Below, one piece after another: positions 13,184-56,593 of a stretch of DNA of 64,000 nucleotides (positions are counted from its first letter, which is position 1; the number at the start of each line of letters is the position of its first letter). A model generated the notes under the pieces. That model did no database searches. It was not told the DNA's origin and was given only the letters and a program-made list of their open reading frames with translations. The stretch lies in IMG/VR virus record IMGVR_UViG_3300020477_000014, positions 124,001-188,000 of that record; one strand, given 5' to 3'. The stretch comes from a virus. The position numbers and the translations under genes were made by a program.

Positions 13184-14446
13184 ATGTCGACGTATTTTAA
13201 AGAAAGCAATAATGAAACTACGATAAAGTTATATAATAAAAGTATTATTTATAAAGACCGCGCGATCCGGTCGGAGGATAATAATATAGTTGATTTTAAT
13301 CGGGGAGAAAAAACGTTTTTTGGGCGCATTCGAAGAGATTCAACTCCGGTAATTGTAACGTCTCAGAGGTCTCTCAAAAAGATAAAAAACAGCCCTCCTG
13401 GCGAACCCCCCCAACGAGCTATGAATTTCGTGGTAGATGTATTCCACGAGATGACAACGCAATTTAAAAAATGCGCTGAATTGGGGAAGATCGATGGAGA
13501 CGAGCCTTTCTTGGGAAATTTGGTTGCCCACCAATCCTACCAGGACCCACGCCGCCTTTATATAGAATATAAAAATTCTCTTTTTGGTCACATAGCGAGT
13601 TATTTCCGGGTTAATAATGTTTATGTGGAAGATTTTCCTTCTTTTGTGCATAAATTTTTGTCGATGGCTCGCGGAATAACTCAGACCACGCGTATTACTT
13701 TTCCTGGCTTCGTTAAAAGCCGAGATTGTCCTATTTTAGTGAGTGGGTTGGCGATTGAAATCGCCGCAGACCAAGATTGCGCTAATGATGACGAAAAAGT
13801 AAAACAATTTATTAATAGTAAAAATTGGGATTTTTATGTTAATACTTGCGATACGTATGGTTTTATGATAGACTATAATATACCTTGGAGAATTGTGGCA
13901 GATATTGATTCTGAAATAATGCGAGAATATGCCGGGCTTTATGGATATGTTTCCCCGCAAGATCTATTAGAGAGAGCCTACACAAGCGTGGCAGCTAACT
14001 ACTCTCACAACACGCTGGTTGATGATTTGTTTGTTTTGTATAACCATGTAAGGGTCCCCTATTGGTCTCAAACTATAACATGCCGAGATGGAAGCACGAA
14101 ACAGATAAGTAAATTTTCTAAAACATATACCCGAGAGCAACTATTAACGACAATGACTGAATCCGACTTTTTCCAAATATTCTTACAATTGCGTCTTTAT
14201 GAAGAGCGCCCCGATCTTAATGACTCTGAGATCCAACAGTTGGTGAAAGATGTTGGCGGCATGGTAAGTAGCGGCAAGAAAGCATATGGATTGAAAATAT
14301 TTGAAAGAATTATTAATAAAGAATTTGACAAAATTGGTTCTTTCAGTTATATTAGATATTCAGATAAAAAGAAATTGGAGCAGTCTTTCTCTGAGGGAGA
14401 GGTGGACGCTATAAAGGTAGATGCAGATGATATTTCAAGCTATTGA
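13184..14446 (+). CDS. probable virion structural protein of the baseplate operon, unknown family
   Basis: The 420-residue protein begins at ATG 13184, 13 bases after an AAGGGGGG site that lies inside the end of the previous gene. An upstream in-frame start at 13169 would add five hydrophobic residues and is less likely. It is mixed alpha/beta with many aromatic residues, and the C-terminus is charged. No enzyme motif is recognised. Co-direction and tight spacing with the large baseplate gene suggest a structural role; it overlaps the following polymerase gene by 26 bases, so the two are probably cotranslated. Confidence 0.45.
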   Translation: MSTYFKESNNETTIKLYNKSIIYKDRAIRSEDNNIVDFNRGEKTFFGRIRRDSTPVIVTSQRSLKKIKNSPPGEPPQRAMNFVVDVFHEMTTQFKKCAELGKIDGDEPFLGNLVAHQSYQDPRRLYIEYKNSLFGHIASYFRVNNVYVEDFPSFVHKFLSMARGITQTTRITFPGFVKSRDCPILVSGLAIEIAADQDCANDDEKVKQFINSKNWDFYVNTCDTYGFMIDYNIPWRIVADIDSEIMREYAGLYGYVSPQDLLERAYTSVAANYSHNTLVDDLFVLYNHVRVPYWSQTITCRDGSTKQISKFSKTYTREQLLTTMTESDFFQIFLQLRLYEERPDLNDSEIQQLVKDVGGMVSSGKKAYGLKIFERIINKEFDKIGSFSYIRYSDKKKLEQSFSEGEVDAIKVDADDISSY

Positions 14447-15599
14447 TGACAAATCCGAATGTGTTGGAGTTTATGTAGATGGCAAATTATATTTTGAAGA
14501 CTTTCCGTCAGATCTTTCGAAGACGTGGAGCTATACTGGTTCACTAAAGGATCACGTTGAATATGCATGGATCCATACTCAAGGTTTGACCTTGATGGAG
14601 GCAGCCCCTCAAGAATTGCAAGTAGATTTATCTGCGGCGTTAAAGAAAATGGAAGCTTATAGGCGTTCGTTTCAGATTGCTAAGGTCAATTTGAATGATC
14701 ATTGTATTTTTGATTTGGTTCCGCATGGTTTTCTTTCTGAATTTTGTGAACTAAAAAATAAGATTACAGCACACGTTTTTGATACGTTTCCTCCCCCTCC
14801 TAACTATGATCATTTGGTGGGGGTCCATCGGCTGCTTCATAAAATTAGCTATCAAGAATTAAATTTGAATGTAGATGGTTGTCGTCATTTGCTTTACAGC
14901 AGTACCGGACGATTAAAAATTAATGAACTCATTAAAAATTATCGCCATATTTATTATAATTTATTTGGCACCGTAACAGGCAGGCTAACAACCAATCAAC
15001 ACTCTTTTCCTATTTTGACTTTGCGTAAGGATCTGAGAGCGATTTTAAAACCGCACAATGATCTGTTTGTAAGCATGGATTATAACGGTGCGGAAATTAG
15101 AACCTTTCTCGATTTATGCGGCAGCGAACAGCCGACGGTGGATATTCATACCTGGAATATAGAAAATATTTTTGAGAACAAAGATATGACGCGAGATGAG
15201 GCTAAAACACTGTTTTTCGCATGGTTGTATAATCCTGAATCTGATCAGATCGATGACGAAATATATAATCGTAAAAAACTTCTTGACACCTGTTATCAAA
15301 ACGGTTATATTACTACTAAATACGGAAGGCATATAAAAGTGGAAGAGCGAAAAGCATTGAATTATCTCATACAAAGTACCACCGCAGATAGAGTGTTGGC
15401 TAAGGCAGTAATGATGGACAAGTTGTTGGAAGGTCGCAGTTCTTTTGTCTCTCATATTATTCATGATGAGGTGGTAATAGACTATGATGATAGCGATAGG
15501 GACATAATGGAAAATTTAAAAAATCTTTTCGAAGATGGATATTTGGCCAACATTAATGCCGGCAAGGATTATTACAATTTAAACAAGTTGGATATATGA
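14421..15599 (+). CDS. short family A DNA polymerase (PolA / T7 gp5-like palm and fingers)
   Basis: The 392-residue protein carries the family A polymerase signature in order: GTVTGRLTT (183-191), motif A SMDYNGAEIR with catalytic Asp 220, motif B RDEAKTLFFAWLY with Lys 262 and Tyr 270, and motif C HIIHDEVV with Asp 349 and Glu 350. ERKALNYLIQSTTAD (309-323) is the conserved helix between them. There is no 3'-5' exonuclease domain and the thumb is reduced, so it is much shorter than T7 gp5 (704) or Pol I. True T4 relatives use a family B polymerase. Catalytic residues are intact, so it is probably active, perhaps for gap filling, repair or special replication. Confidence 0.85.
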   Translation: MQMIFQAIDDKSECVGVYVDGKLYFEDFPSDLSKTWSYTGSLKDHVEYAWIHTQGLTLMEAAPQELQVDLSAALKKMEAYRRSFQIAKVNLNDHCIFDLVPHGFLSEFCELKNKITAHVFDTFPPPPNYDHLVGVHRLLHKISYQELNLNVDGCRHLLYSSTGRLKINELIKNYRHIYYNLFGTVTGRLTTNQHSFPILTLRKDLRAILKPHNDLFVSMDYNGAEIRTFLDLCGSEQPTVDIHTWNIENIFENKDMTRDEAKTLFFAWLYNPESDQIDDEIYNRKKLLDTCYQNGYITTKYGRHIKVEERKALNYLIQSTTADRVLAKAVMMDKLLEGRSSFVSHIIHDEVVIDYDDSDRDIMENLKNLFEDGYLANINAGKDYYNLNKLDI

Positions 15600-29756: not shown

Positions 29757-30627
29757 TTTAAAGACCGATTTGCAGACAGTTTTCCCCGAGGTCCTATTGC
29801 CTCTGGCGCCAGATTTTACTGCTATTCAGAAGTCAGTATATGAATGTGCTTTGGTCGGCTGCCAAACGATCTGGGTTGTAGCCAATAATGATCTGGCTCC
29901 AATCGTGCGCAAGAGCGTCGGTGAGTGGGTTTATGATCCGGTGTATTATAATCGCACAATGACGCAGTTTTATAGGGAAGTAAGGAAAGAGATACCTATT
30001 TACTATGTCCCTATCCACCCCAAGGATCGGGATAGGCGAGATTGTTATGCATGGTCCATTCTTTATGGCGCTTATAGCGCGTGGTCGGTAGCCTATAAAA
30101 TTTCTAAATGGGTGAGACCTGAAAAATATTATGTTTCTTTTCCGTTATCTGCTTATAAGCTTGACTTCTTGCGAAGAGAAAGACTATCTATAGCTAATAA
30201 AGAAAAGAACTTTTTTCTTTCTTATGAAGATAAGACCATTAAAGACAATTTGCCTTTAGCATTTACATTTACAGGAGATGATTTTATAAAATGCCGCCGA
30301 GATCTAAACAAAAAGACAACAAGGGAATTTTTACCCCCTTCACCCGACCAACGGTACCCGTCACAAAAGAGGCCTCTAGCCGACAGGTGGAGCGCGAGAA
30401 CGTTCGACCTCTCCACGGTTTTTGAGCAGCTAACACTTTCCGACAGCAATATTGTTCCTATAGAAAAGTTCTACGATCTTTCTGAGTGGGGACAGTATTG
30501 TGCTTTTTTATGTCAAGAAAGTGACAAATTAATAAAAAAACCATATAAAGACTTGATCAAACCAAGATTTCATGTTAAATTACCATATACATCATCAGGA
30601 GGGAAAGATGAAGAAATCGAAGATTAA
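29725..30627 (+). CDS. predicted nucleotidyltransferase-fold protein, function unknown
   Basis: The 300-residue protein starts at GTG inside the previous gene (32-base overlap). The N-terminus GIIPVANLKTDLQ resembles the nucleotide-binding loop of sugar-nucleotide transferases, though the GXGTR motif is weak. VYECALVGCQTIWVVANNDLAPIVR and DCYAWSILYGAYSAWSV continue the Rossmann-like order of such enzymes. The C-terminal third is basic with a Lys/Pro-rich end. No sugar or tRNA target can be named. It could alternatively be a structural or regulatory protein; its start and end overlap both neighbours. Confidence 0.4.
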   Translation: MHLAGIIPVANLKTDLQTVFPEVLLPLAPDFTAIQKSVYECALVGCQTIWVVANNDLAPIVRKSVGEWVYDPVYYNRTMTQFYREVRKEIPIYYVPIHPKDRDRRDCYAWSILYGAYSAWSVAYKISKWVRPEKYYVSFPLSAYKLDFLRRERLSIANKEKNFFLSYEDKTIKDNLPLAFTFTGDDFIKCRRDLNKKTTREFLPPSPDQRYPSQKRPLADRWSARTFDLSTVFEQLTLSDSNIVPIEKFYDLSEWGQYCAFLCQESDKLIKKPYKDLIKPRFHVKLPYTSSGGKDEEIED

Positions 30628-33600
30628 ATTTGTGGGGCTCCACGCACATTCAGTGGCAGGGTCGATTTTTGACGCCATCGGGTATCCACAGCAACATATG
30701 GATTTTGCATATCAGAACGGATGCGAAGCGCTAGCTTTGACAGATCATGGAAACATGAATGGCTTAGCTTATCAAGTGCTTCATGCCAAAAAGATGCAAG
30801 AGGCTGGACAAAACTTTAAACCAATATTTGGATGTGAAGCATATTTTATCCCGTCTCTTGAGGAATGGCGAGAGGAATACGCAAAAGCCAAAGAAGATAA
30901 GAAGCGCGCCCGGTCCTTATCTAAAGACAAGGCGTCCGGCGCCACCATGGAAGACGAAGGCGCCAGCAAAGCAACGCAAGACATTCTCCGTCGTCGTCGC
31001 CATTTGGTGTTATTGGTTCAGAACCAAAAGGGGTTGACCAATTTATTCAAGCTAGTGTCCGAGAGCTACAAACCAGAGAATTACTATCGCTATCCACGAA
31101 TGGACTATGCGCTCTTGGAAAAGTATAACGAGGGACTCATCGCAGCTAGCGCATGCTTGGGTGGAGTGTATGCGGGGAACTATTGGGAGAACCGAGAGAA
31201 CGCAGCCGATGTGCTAGCAGCTATGGATGAAACATCTCAGAAGATGAAAAGTATCTTTGGGGATCGTTGGTATGCAGAAATCCAATGGAACAACGTACCG
31301 GAACAGCACGAACTAAATCAATATGTGATTGAGACTGCAAAACGCAATGACATCAAGCTCATCTCAACAGCCGATAGCCACTATCCTAACCCGGACGCAT
31401 GGAAAGACCGAGAGCTTTACAAGAGACTTGGTTGGCTCGGCAAAGGAAAGCCATCGTGGGCAGACGAAGAGAGCGAATTGCCCGATGGTGTTGATGAGAT
31501 TGGCTATGAACTGTATCCGAAGAACGGCGACCAGATGTGGGATTCGTATCTTAAATACTCAGAAGAGTCAGACCACGAGTATGATGATGACGTGGTGCTG
31601 GAGAGCATTGAAGAAACCTATCGAATTGCTTTCGATCGTATCGAGAGTTTTCTTCCAGATAACACAGTCAGGCTTCCAAACTTTGTGGTACCAGCCGGCT
31701 ACACCGCAACGCAGGCGTTGGTTCAATTCGCCCTGGAAGGACTTAAAGATAGAAACCTACAGAAGAACCAGGAGTACATAGATCGATTACGACATGAGCT
31801 AAACGTTATCGATGACCGAGGGTTCTCCAAGTATTTCCTCACCATGAAGGCGATCGCTGACGTGGCTACCGATAAGATGTTGGCTGGTCCAGGTCGCGGG
31901 TCTGCGGCAGGGTCGTTGGTGGCTTATGTCCTAGGAATTACACAGGTTGATCCCATCAAGCATGGTCTGTTGTTTTCTCGCTTCTTACGATCAGATGCCA
32001 CGGACTACCCGGACATCGACTATGATGTTTCTGACTCCATGGATCTTAAAGAATCATTGGTGGAAATGTGGGGCAAGGATTGTGTCGCGCCCATATCTAA
32101 TTGGAACACGCTTCAATTGAAATCTCTGATTAAGGACATTTCAAAGCTGTACGGCGTTCCTTTCACAGAGGCCAACACGGTCACTAACATTATGATCCGC
32201 GAAGCGCTTCCAGAAGCCAAACGCCGCCATGGCATCAAGGCTGGTGTGTATACTCCGACGTGGGAAGAGGTGATGGAATTCTCGCCCACACTTCAAAAGT
32301 ATCTCGACAAACATCCCCACATCAAGACGCACGTTGAGGGGCTGGTTGGTCAGGTTCGATCGTGCTCTCGGCATGCCGGCGGCGTTGTCATCGCAGAGAA
32401 CCTTGATGAGAGCATGCCTCTTATTAACTCCGGCGGGGTGCGACAAGCTCCATGGTCAGAGGGACAGAACGTCCGCCACCTAGAGCCCATGGGCTTCATC
32501 AAGTTTGACTTGTTGGGTCTTTCCACATTAAAGATGATGGAGGGCTGCATCGAACATGTCTTGCGTCGTCATCACGGAATCGAGAATCCAACGTTTGCCG
32601 AAGTTCGGAAGTATTACGACGAAAACCTTCATCCCGACATCATGAACATGAACGATCAAGAGGTGTATGAGAACATATTCCACAGCGGCAAATGGGCTGG
32701 CGTCTTCCAATTCACAGAGGACGGAGCACAGAAGTTTTGCACGAGAGTAAAACCTAAGAACATCATCGACCTTTCAGCCATCACATCAATTTATCGCCCG
32801 GGACCGTTGGCGGCAGATGTACATGAAGAATATGTAGAAGCCAAAGAGCATCCACATAGAGTCTCTTATCTGTCTGATGAAGTGTGCGAACTCACACAAG
32901 AGACGTTCGGCTTTCTGATCTTCCAAGAGCAGATTGCTCTGCTGGCTCACCGGCTCGGAGGCTTAACTTTGGATGAGGGAAACCTGTTACGCAAAGTACT
33001 CACCAAGAAAGGAACAGGCAAAGACAACATCAAAGAGAAGCTTCGGCAGAAGTTTATCAAAGGTTGTGCTAGCAAGAAGATCACCAAAACAGACGCACAG
33101 AATTTGTGGGATAAGTTTGAATACTTCTCTGGCTATGGGTTTAACAAATCCCATGCTGTTTCGTATTCTATCATCTCGTTCCAATGTGCGTGGTTATGGA
33201 ACTACTACCCAGTAGAATGGATGGCAGCGTTCTTGGACAAGGAGCCCGAGAGCAGAAAAGAGAAAGCCATTAACATCGCCAAAAAGTATGGCTTCAAAAT
33301 CGCACCGCTAGACATTAACAAGTCAGGTGTTGTTTGGGAAATTAGCGATGATGGCAAGACTTTGATCCAACCTCTTACTTCCATTAAAGGGTTCGGTCAT
33401 GCAGCTATCGAGCAAGTCTTGAATCATCGCCCCTTTATGAACGCGGAAGATCTTTTGTTTCGCGAAGAAGTGGTATACGGAAAGTTAAATAAGAAATGTT
33501 TAGATGCGTTGTGTCGTGCTGGTGCCTTGGACCTTCTTATGGACGATCGATTTACTGGCCGTAAGCATTTTTGGTCTGCATGTGTGGTTGAGCGTCCTAA

Positions 33601-34030
33601 AAATTTAAAGAAACTTACGGAAAATATAGAACTATACCGACCGGAAGGAGATTTTACCGAAGAAGAGATTATCCAATTTAAAACTGACTTAACGGGGGTT
33701 TTTCCAATAAACTTGGTTATCAGCCCGGAGACAGTTCAGCGTCTTCAAGAAAAGTATATCCCTCCTATTTCTGAGTTCGATCCAGATTTACAGGTATGCT
33801 GGTTTATTCCGCGCAAGATTGTTCCAAGAAAAACAAAAAATGGAAAGCTTTATTGGATTGTTGAGACTATTGACACCAACAATGAACTAACTAAGATTAG
33901 GTGCTGGGGCGTTAAGCCGGAGAAGGATAAGATCTTTTTGAACCGACCTTATATGGCTCGTTTGAAGTATGATCAAAATTGGGGATTTTCTACATATGCA
34001 ATTGGCAAGACATTTAAATTGCTGGGGTGA
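30608..34030 (+). CDS. DNA polymerase III alpha subunit (family C, DnaE-type)
   Basis: The 1140-residue protein is a complete family C replicative polymerase. It starts with the PHP domain (GLHAHSVAGSIFDAI, then LTDHGNMNG), which binds metals for proofreading or stability. The palm carries GPGRGSAAGSLVAYVLG (about 424-440) and the catalytic YPDIDYDVSD (about 465-474). Fingers and beta-clamp-binding tandem HhH parts follow. The C-terminal 150 residues include an OB-like segment. ATG 30608 follows AGGAGG. It is a bacterial-type replicase, not the family B enzyme usual in T4 relatives. Confidence 0.92.
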   Translation: MKKSKIKFVGLHAHSVAGSIFDAIGYPQQHMDFAYQNGCEALALTDHGNMNGLAYQVLHAKKMQEAGQNFKPIFGCEAYFIPSLEEWREEYAKAKEDKKRARSLSKDKASGATMEDEGASKATQDILRRRRHLVLLVQNQKGLTNLFKLVSESYKPENYYRYPRMDYALLEKYNEGLIAASACLGGVYAGNYWENRENAADVLAAMDETSQKMKSIFGDRWYAEIQWNNVPEQHELNQYVIETAKRNDIKLISTADSHYPNPDAWKDRELYKRLGWLGKGKPSWADEESELPDGVDEIGYELYPKNGDQMWDSYLKYSEESDHEYDDDVVLESIEETYRIAFDRIESFLPDNTVRLPNFVVPAGYTATQALVQFALEGLKDRNLQKNQEYIDRLRHELNVIDDRGFSKYFLTMKAIADVATDKMLAGPGRGSAAGSLVAYVLGITQVDPIKHGLLFSRFLRSDATDYPDIDYDVSDSMDLKESLVEMWGKDCVAPISNWNTLQLKSLIKDISKLYGVPFTEANTVTNIMIREALPEAKRRHGIKAGVYTPTWEEVMEFSPTLQKYLDKHPHIKTHVEGLVGQVRSCSRHAGGVVIAENLDESMPLINSGGVRQAPWSEGQNVRHLEPMGFIKFDLLGLSTLKMMEGCIEHVLRRHHGIENPTFAEVRKYYDENLHPDIMNMNDQEVYENIFHSGKWAGVFQFTEDGAQKFCTRVKPKNIIDLSAITSIYRPGPLAADVHEEYVEAKEHPHRVSYLSDEVCELTQETFGFLIFQEQIALLAHRLGGLTLDEGNLLRKVLTKKGTGKDNIKEKLRQKFIKGCASKKITKTDAQNLWDKFEYFSGYGFNKSHAVSYSIISFQCAWLWNYYPVEWMAAFLDKEPESRKEKAINIAKKYGFKIAPLDINKSGVVWEISDDGKTLIQPLTSIKGFGHAAIEQVLNHRPFMNAEDLLFREEVVYGKLNKKCLDALCRAGALDLLMDDRFTGRKHFWSACVVERPKNLKKLTENIELYRPEGDFTEEEIIQFKTDLTGVFPINLVISPETVQRLQEKYIPPISEFDPDLQVCWFIPRKIVPRKTKNGKLYWIVETIDTNNELTKIRCWGVKPEKDKIFLNRPYMARLKYDQNWGFSTYAIGKTFKLLG

Positions 34031-38285: not shown

Positions 38286-38590
38286 ATCGCAAACAAAGGC
38301 GAGCATTGGACAAAAACAATCGAAGCACTTGCGCCGAAAATTTCTCCGATAAAATTTCTCAGTTTAACAAGCTACCCGAACAATGCTCAACATGCGAAAA
38401 AGAGTTTGACCGCAAAAATCGAGAAATGCTACAATCCTGGAACGTAGTAGTGAGACAAGAAGTGGTGCGGCTATTTTGTCCTCAGTGCATGGACAAAGCA
38501 AAACAAATACTAAAAAAACACGGAGGTAAAGATGGAAGTAGAGCGTCTATCATTCAACGCACTGAAAAAGATACTCAAGGGGCAACTTAG
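38282..38590 (+). CDS. small Cys-X2-Cys protein, unknown function
   Basis: The 102-residue protein starts in the ATGA of the methylase stop. It is highly basic at both ends, with CSTC and CPQC pairs that could bind a zinc ion (about residues 36-39 and 80-83). It overlaps the thioredoxin gene by 59 bases, an unusually long overlap for this genome; the last 20 residues may be non-essential. Family not recognised. Confidence 0.55.
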   Translation: MNRKQRRALDKNNRSTCAENFSDKISQFNKLPEQCSTCEKEFDRKNREMLQSWNVVVRQEVVRLFCPQCMDKAKQILKKHGGKDGSRASIIQRTEKDTQGAT

Positions 38591-38900
38591 AGAAAAGGCA
38601 ACTTGCGTTATAAAATTTTATTCGCGTGATTGTCATTACTGCCATGCCCTGAAAGAATATTATGACGAGATAGCGGAAAAATATGAAAATATCCACTTCT
38701 TTGCTTTTAACACACAAGATGATTCCGATTTAGATAATTATATAAAGATTAATGGAGTGCCCACGCTAGCGTTAGTATATTATAACGGACTCCACCCGCC
38801 ACGCGTACACGTGATAGAGGACCCTTCCCACCCAAACGAACATACGTGGTATCGTTCTAAGGACATTATTAATTTTATTGAGAGGTATAAAAATGGATAG
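38532..38900 (+). CDS. thioredoxin-like protein with CHYC active site
   Basis: The 122-residue protein has a thioredoxin fold: ATCVIKFYSRDCHYCHALKEYYDE carries the redox motif CHYC at about residues 34-37, and YIKINGVPTLALVYYNG supplies the cis-proline loop. The -His-Tyr- spacer is like glutaredoxin/DsbA-type sites. It is a plausible electron donor for the class II reductase at 24868. ATG follows GGAGG. It overlaps the upstream gene by 59 bases. Confidence 0.82.
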   Translation: MEVERLSFNALKKILKGQLREKATCVIKFYSRDCHYCHALKEYYDEIAEKYENIHFFAFNTQDDSDLDNYIKINGVPTLALVYYNGLHPPRVHVIEDPSHPNEHTWYRSKDIINFIERYKNG

Positions 38901-39252
38901 AAATATAAAATTGCTAGAGGCGGCAATGCTTCAACTTAAAGGCAAGTCGGTGGAACATTTGGCGGCTGTCGAAATGTTGGTGGACAAAGGTCGACCAAGT
39001 GTAGATTCCGCTAATTATGTGGAAGAGATTTTAGCTCACATGCGCGAAGTGATGATTTGTGAAAATACTCTGGCAGCCGTACAAATGTACTTTCCCCCCA
39101 ATACGCCACAGGCAACCCCTCCGGTTATGGATGCGGAAAAACCGCCGGCTGCTCCCCATGGATTTGAAAAGTTGGAAGAAGCTATGGAAGAAATAGCCAA
39201 AGAAAAAAAGTCCCCAAAGACCTCGAGGTCCCGCACTAGAAAAAAGCCTTAG
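38893..39252 (+). CDS. hypothetical protein with a frameshift-site 3' end (zero-frame product)
   Basis: The 119-residue zero-frame product starts at ATG 38893 after AGAGG. Residues 1-65 are helical with acidic and hydrophobic repeats, then a Pro/Ala-rich linker leads to a Lys/Glu/Arg-rich tail ending TRKKP. No family is recognised. The second-last codons read AGA AAA AAG, a dnaX-type A AAA AAG slippery heptamer. A -1 shift would add 37 residues and stop in the start of the next gene. Confidence 0.6.
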   Translation: MDRNIKLLEAAMLQLKGKSVEHLAAVEMLVDKGRPSVDSANYVEEILAHMREVMICENTLAAVQMYFPPNTPQATPPVMDAEKPPAAPHGFEKLEEAMEEIAKEKKSPKTSRSRTRKKP

Positions 39253-39281
39253 ACCATGACTATCTAAAGGTAGCTAGTCAT
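39240..39281 (+). promoter_or_regulatory. putative -1 programmed ribosomal frameshift element
   Basis: A AAA AAG occupies 39240-39246 in the right phase (AGA AAA AAG). Nine bases later a stem-loop follows: ATGACTA (39256-39262) pairs perfectly with TAGTCAT (39275-39281), with a loop of 12. Heptamer, spacer and stem all match bacterial -1 signals such as dnaX. The shifted frame is open to 39357 and its TGA overlaps the next ATG. Confidence 0.65.
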
Positions 39282-39359
39282 ACCTACAAACAATCTTTAA
39301 AGGCGGCAGAAATTCGGCGACAACTCAAAAGCAAAAACCCCCCAAAGAGTGACGAATGA
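39246..39359 (+). CDS. C-terminal extension reached by -1 frameshift
   Basis: After the slip, 37 residues are read, beginning ALDHDYLKVASHTYKQ and ending KSKNPPKSDE, a helical and basic peptide. The frame has no ATG, GTG or TTG of its own and is bounded by a TAG at 39237. Its TGA (39357-39359) overlaps the ATG of the following gene by ATGA, the same coupling seen between real genes here. The full fusion would have about 155 residues. Confidence 0.6.
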   Translation, partial: ALDHDYLKVASHTYKQSLKAAEIRRQLKSKNPPKSDE

Positions 39360-39685
39360 CAGACAACGATCCCTCTTACGGAAAAATGACCAAACGAGTG
39401 GTCTTTACTGTTAACGACCATGTGCATGCGAAATTTTTAGTGAAGTTGAAATACGCAGGCTTTAAACAATCTCAGTTTTTTCGTTTGATTATGGATGCAT
39501 ACATTGACGAGGATGATAACTTCTTAGCATTTATCGACAAGATAAAACCACAATCTCAGAAGCACAAAAACAAGTCCAAAAAGCTACGATTGGCAGGGAC
39601 AAAGATAGCGAATGATATGGGGTTAAACGAGGGGGAAATCGAGAATATCTTTGATATATTGGAACAAGAATTCCCCGATCTTTAA
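39356..39685 (+). CDS. hypothetical protein (possible transcription or DNA-linked factor)
   Basis: The 109-residue protein starts in the ATGA of the frameshifted frame. It is helical and basic in the middle (KIKPQSQKHKNKSKK) and ends with an acidic segment IFDILEQEFPDL. Such a short acidic tail on a small basic protein resembles clamp- or polymerase-binding tails of phage late factors, but no specific family is recognised. The 87 bases after it lead to the late-promoter motif. Confidence 0.5.
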   Translation: MTDNDPSYGKMTKRVVFTVNDHVHAKFLVKLKYAGFKQSQFFRLIMDAYIDEDDNFLAFIDKIKPQSQKHKNKSKKLRLAGTKIANDMGLNEGEIENIFDILEQEFPDL

Positions 39686-55735: not shown

Positions 55736-55820
55736 GGGAGTGTGGTGGAATTCGGCAGACACATCGGACTTAAAATCCGTGGCTTTTTTAAGCGTGAGGG
55801 TTCAAATCCCTCCATTCCCA
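55736..55820 (+). tRNA. tRNA-Leu (anticodon UAA)
   Basis: The acceptor stem GGGAGTG (55736-55742) pairs with CATTCCC (55813-55819), with one G-U pair. The anticodon loop CTTAAAA gives UAA; the long variable arm GCTT...AAGC marks a class II Leu tRNA; the T arm is GAGGG-TTCAAAT-CCCTC. CCA is not encoded. The lowest base pair of the anticodon stem is U-U. It reads UUA (and UUG) leucine codons. A single-promoter transcript continues into 55859. Confidence 0.9.
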
Positions 55821-56517: not shown

Positions 56518-56593
56518 GCGGGTGTAGCTCAGTTGGTAGAGCATCACGTTGCCAACGTGAATGTCGTGGGTTCGAGTCCCATCACCCGCTCCA
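56518..56593 (+). tRNA. tRNA-Gly (anticodon GCC)
   Basis: The acceptor stem GCGGGTG pairs fully with CACCCGC (56583-56589), the D loop has AGCTCAGTTGGTAGAGC, the anticodon loop TTGCCAA gives GCC, and the T arm is GTGGG-TTCGAGT-CCCAT. A discriminator T and encoded CCA end it at 56593. All arms are canonical. The minus-strand protease gene ends four bases later. Confidence 0.95.

Follow-up and report, generated by a model that had tools for sequence, protein, structure and literature searches.

The locus and its two reading frames

The window under study, 64,000 nucleotides in length, is part of a 189,712-bp IMG/VR virus record (IMGVR_UViG_3300020477_000014). Its plus strand carries a gene (38893-39252) whose ATG at 38893 overlaps the stop of a thioredoxin-like gene (38532-38900) and whose 119-aa product consists of an N-terminal domain (approximately residues 1-67) followed by a Pro/Lys-rich linker. 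The 3' end of this gene reads ACT AGA AAA AAG CCT TAG (R K K P stop), the stop lying at 39250-39252. The next gene (39356-39685, plus strand) encodes a 109-aa protein that is kept in hundreds of marine viral contigs and has no counterpart in cultured phages; by eye it resembles a ribbon-helix-helix protein, a resemblance for which profile searches gave no support. Further 3', this small conserved gene is followed by genes for an acidic protein, a 138-aa protein and a ClpP-like protease. Two other regions, 14421-15599 and 30572-34030, contribute polymerase sequences: a DnaE-like DNA polymerase III alpha subunit, with 27-31% identity to proteins of Bacillus phages, and what looks by eye like a family-A-like polymerase piece. 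The window also harbors a tRNA-Leu (taa, 55736-55820) and a tRNA-Gly (gcc, 56518-56593), while a tRNA-Lys is absent.

Just before its stop, the 119-aa gene contains an A_AAA_AAG heptamer (39240-39246, plus strand), one of the heptamers at which frameshifting is most frequent in E. coli (PMC4066793; PMC5009743). As the earlier note had claimed, the heptamer is in the correct phase; it lies one codon 5' of the zero-frame stop. By itself it is unremarkable, since phased A_AAA_AAR sites occur 16 times in the 20,025 codons of the 74 window genes (12 A_AAA_AAG and four A_AAA_AAA); the site at 39240-39246 is the sole one among them to be followed by at least 30 open -1 codons. Direct reading and three-frame translation show the -1 frame to be closed immediately 5' of the slip site by a TAG (39237-39239, plus strand). 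Together with the zero-frame stop, this means that the two frames can be joined only within 39240-39252, an interval that is nearly the heptamer itself. A second phased A_AAA_AAG lies 12 codons 5' in the same gene (39204-39210) and is unable to reach the downstream -1 frame, because the frame entered there closes after nine codons at the TAG 39237-39239. A TTTAAAC near 15578, accompanied by a long -1 frame, was also considered and set aside as an ordinary overlap, given that the downstream gene has its own ATG at 15596.

From 39246 the -1 frame, read after a slip as GCC TTA GAC..., is open for 37 codons up to a TGA at 39357-39359 (plus strand), encoding the tail ALDHDYLKVASHTYKQSLKAAEIRRQLKSKNPPKSDE, an annotation based on codon usage, on homology to the -1 tail of the contig L083 described below and on alignment with the in-frame tails of relatives. 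This ORF holds no ATG, GTG or TTG, and its TGA overlaps the ATG of the next gene (39356) as ATGA, so that both the open frame devoid of its own start and the overlapping stop are as previously described. Codon usage in the -1 ORF is coding-like, with a score of 0.081 versus 0.130 +/- 0.086 for real coding windows and -0.141 +/- 0.095 for out-of-frame windows. Only 6.8% of the out-of-frame 37-codon windows are stop-free, and 1 of 115 stop-free out-of-frame windows scores as high as the -1 ORF.

A protein family of marine viruses

Searches of IMG/VR with the zero-frame or the fused protein alone gave no match, and searches of cultured phages and genome contigs gave no close relative. Neighbour genes were used as search anchors to recover syntenic marine contigs, in which the gene order is a CxxC gene, the thioredoxin-like gene, nothing or a family member, guaB (IMP dehydrogenase) and the conserved 109-aa gene. 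guaB is found at this place in most syntenic contigs (L001-L014, L082-L161), is absent in the window and in L083, and is reduced to a remnant of its start in L151. Outside the window and L083, 28 distinct sequences of the same protein family adjoin the same thioredoxin-like gene in marine viral contigs. Most of them have the N-domain, a Pro-rich linker and, close to the stop, a tail motif (S-x-T-Y/F-R/K-x-S) all in one frame, and most in-frame tails conform to [VI]TPExSPTxxRxLE or LTExxLxxRSxTFRKS. The tails of L085, L107 and L114 fit the motif poorly, and the single-frame protein of L099 (81 aa) has lost the tail. An HMM of the family built without the window and L083 recovers both the window gene (E 1e-13) and that of L083 (E 6e-17).

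The zero-frame product of L083 matches phrog_1811 (E 1.1e-10 over residues 5-68), and the phrog_1811 profile is matched by 8 of 23 family members; the window protein does not match it when searched directly and is linked to the family by the HMM. The likeness is one of the N-domain, and the cultured-phage proteins differ in being standalone N-domains of 66-73 aa, without linker or tail (PSSM2_282, PHM2_208, CYOG_00039 and HTVC103P_gp83, from Prochlorococcus phages P-SSM2, P-HM2 and 9515-10a and Pelagibacter phage HTVC103P). Profile searches against Pfam and PDB provided no functional lead, the PDB matches being designed proteins. The host protein, formerly described as unknown, can now be assigned to a family with a phrog_1811-type N-domain, a linker and a tail. 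Considering the tail-less phage proteins, the relatives, and the window together with L083, three states appear to exist: the N-domain alone, the N-domain plus tail in one frame, and both by frameshift.

The -1 split is carried by only two genomes, the window and L083, a 135,976-bp contig with the same guaB-less gene order. Identity between them is 66% for the thioredoxin-like gene, 58% for the next gene and 38% for the zero-frame product. In L083 the zero frame ends TCT AAA AAA AAA CCG ACG TAG, with an A9 run at the junction; the -1 frame is closed upstream by a TAA at the start of the A-run, and the zero-frame stop follows. The tail of L083 (...SLTHNQLMQRSSTYRRSLEKRKM...; peptide TDVDAPSLTHNQLMQR) lies in the -1 frame, the same direction of shift as in the window. 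As to conservation of heptamer and stem in relatives, which the earlier note had suggested as a check, the -1 split recurs at a slippery A-run in L083, the one close relative found; the stem is not kept there, and the other relatives are single-frame or tail-less.

A profile of the single-frame tails ranks the L083 -1 ORF first of 2,118 ORFs (E 0.0017). The window and L083 tails align with a score that was reached in one shuffle out of 5,000 and that ranks first among 1,921 six-frame window ORFs. Profiles made from the relatives' tails do not lift the window tail above noise (E 2.8-5), and its proposed homology rests on L083, on position and on the motif. A tail-profile match at 33388-33489 of the window was discarded as a chance hit, in another frame inside the DnaE-like polymerase gene. 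Over the 19-codon tail core, 8 of 19 residues are identical between the window and L083, seven of them through different synonymous codons; the other two frames over the core give two and one identities and contain stops. Such a pattern is the one expected of selection on a translated -1 frame. Given the one-frame tails of relatives, the split in L083, the synonymous conservation and the coding-like codon usage, the tail is very probably translated.

Proposed ribosomal slippage and its alternatives

Slippage of the ribosome by -1 offers the best route to the tail, as it would account for the phase and direction of the shift and for the narrow interval to which it is confined. The original reading of the site as a programmed -1 frameshift is supported by the in-frame tails of relatives and by the -1 split of L083 at its A-run, and on this comparative evidence programmed -1 ribosomal frameshifting at 39240-39246, adding a C-terminal tail, is likely to be real. 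Most ribosomes starting at 38893 would halt at the TAG 39250-39252 and release the 119-aa protein, N-domain plus basic linker, presumably the commoner product. A fraction would re-pair one base back on A_AAA_AAG and end at the TGA 39357-39359, yielding a 155-aa protein with the conserved C-tail of the family. Terminating at the ATGA, such ribosomes may in addition contribute to translating the gene that follows.

The perfect 7-bp stem reported nine bases 3' of the heptamer is indeed present (ATGACTA at 39256-39262 pairing with TAGTCAT at 39275-39281; stem-loop 39256-39281, plus strand), followed by a 1x1 mismatch, 3 bp and a tetraloop, but as a -1 signal it is weak. It begins 9 nt after the heptamer, the usual spacing being 5-8 nt (PMC4066793), and roughly 1% of positions have, by chance, a perfect 7-bp hairpin starting 5-10 nt downstream. 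The stem folds with an unexceptional energy (-7.9 to -8.5 kcal/mol; z of -1.8 for 35 nt and near 0 for 60-80 nt), approximately 10% of the 35-nt pieces of the window folding equally well, and comparison with L083 revealed no matching stem there. Being weak, starting at 9 nt and not conserved in L083, the stem may help slippage as, at most, a modest 3' stimulator. A perfect 12-nt palindrome (GACCTCGAGGTC, 39219-39230), absent from L083, is located just 5' of the slip site. No convincing Shine-Dalgarno-like stimulator was found, the GAGG at 39225-39228 sitting 11 nt upstream inside the palindrome and missing in L083, and an Rfam search gave no match.

An identical protein would be made if RNA polymerase added an A in the run and the transcript were then translated normally. 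In bacteria, slippage takes place on runs of nine A or T (PMC5009743), and polymerase slippage on the A9 at the junction of L083 is a real alternative. In the window, however, the run is only A6 before a G, on which polymerase slippage is unlikely, and the longer A7 (39203-39209) is unusable, since a shift into the -1 frame at that point runs into the TAG 39237-39239. Moreover, A_AAA_AAG is exactly phased, as a ribosomal site requires. Transcriptional slippage is thus considered quite improbable as the origin of the longer protein, and we infer that it is the ribosome that slips. Alternatively, an ancestral frame-breaking indel common to the window virus and L083 could have left the tail as a dead remnant, with only the short protein being made. 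A-runs concentrate indels and tail-less single-frame forms do exist (L099, and the 66-73 aa proteins of cyanophages and a pelagiphage), yet both tails have stayed open, with their motif kept through synonymous changes, while the zero-frame proteins diverged to only 38% identity. The window tail also retains coding-like codon usage in a frame of a kind that is seldom stop-free over 37 codons (6.8%), and decay of this sort is improbable.

Loss of a single A through assembly or sequencing error is another possible origin of the split, in keeping with the single-frame relatives: with one more A at 39240-39245, the two frames would become a single one of 155 codons with the same protein sequence. 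This is very unlikely, given that an error of the same effect at the same junction would also have to have arisen in L083, which is a separate contig and stems from a diverged virus, and that A6 is short for a homopolymer error. The -1 ORF could also be regarded as a separate small gene with its own or coupled initiation, in line with its ATGA end shared with the next gene, as in normal phage genes, and with the TTG and ATG internal to the L083 -1 ORF. Nevertheless, the window -1 ORF lacks any ATG, GTG or TTG, and the conserved part starts directly after the junction and forms, in relatives, the C-terminus of the same protein, which makes independent initiation exceedingly unlikely.

If ribosomal slippage is the mechanism, the slippery site may, in this lineage, have turned a protein that has the tail in most relatives and lacks it in cyanophages into a fixed-ratio mixture of the two forms. 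The long:short ratio would then be a selected trait, serving assembly or stoichiometry in a context other than that of tail chaperones. This is put forward tentatively, as a possibility short of probable. Both products may be needed, for example where the tail's contact is made by the long form alone within a mixture of the two. Tailed, tail-less and both-by-frameshift members coexist in the family, so that a role for the product ratio is testable by form swaps.

Significance and comparison with known systems

Automated gene calling would annotate a 119-aa protein at this locus and overlook the conserved tail. With the present analysis, based on sequence only, a protein family of widespread marine viruses gains a probable case of recoding that a diverged relative supports, and the tryptic peptides ALDHDYLK and VASHTYK provide searchable marks of the window tail in marine metaproteomes.

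The designation of the signal as dnaX-like holds for the heptamer and not for the layout, as here the zero frame stops next to the slip site, the -1 frame continues for 37 codons and the shifted product would be the longer one. In E. coli dnaX (tau/gamma), frameshifting yields the shorter product, by way of an early stop in the -1 frame. Both systems share A_AAA_AAG and a downstream stem-loop, but the shift shortens the product there and would lengthen it here, and the window has no clear 5' Shine-Dalgarno-like element. A few bacteria have the dnaX layout reversed, resembling the arrangement in the window (PMC5009743).

In lambda G/GT and many relatives, standard decoding of a small gene gives the short form, and a -1 slip close to the 3' end of that gene provides some of the molecules with an additional C-terminal part (PMC5009743). 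The proposed slip resembles this in its place, late in a small phage gene, and in giving a longer, C-terminally extended product. Unlike G/GT, which directly precedes the tape-measure gene in a group of tail genes, the window gene lies between the thioredoxin-like gene and the small conserved gene, ahead of the ClpP-like head-protease region, and its extension is a 37-aa tail that single-frame relatives also have. In this last respect it recalls the Ig-like C-terminal extensions of coat and tail proteins (T3, A2, A118, PSA), which are in-frame in some phages and frameshifted in others (PMC5009743), the same kind of extension being reached either way among phages; the window tail differs in being a short charged motif, rather than an Ig domain, on a small protein. 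The slippage mechanism is already known; this gene, which very probably makes both a short and a tailed protein, had not been known to employ it.
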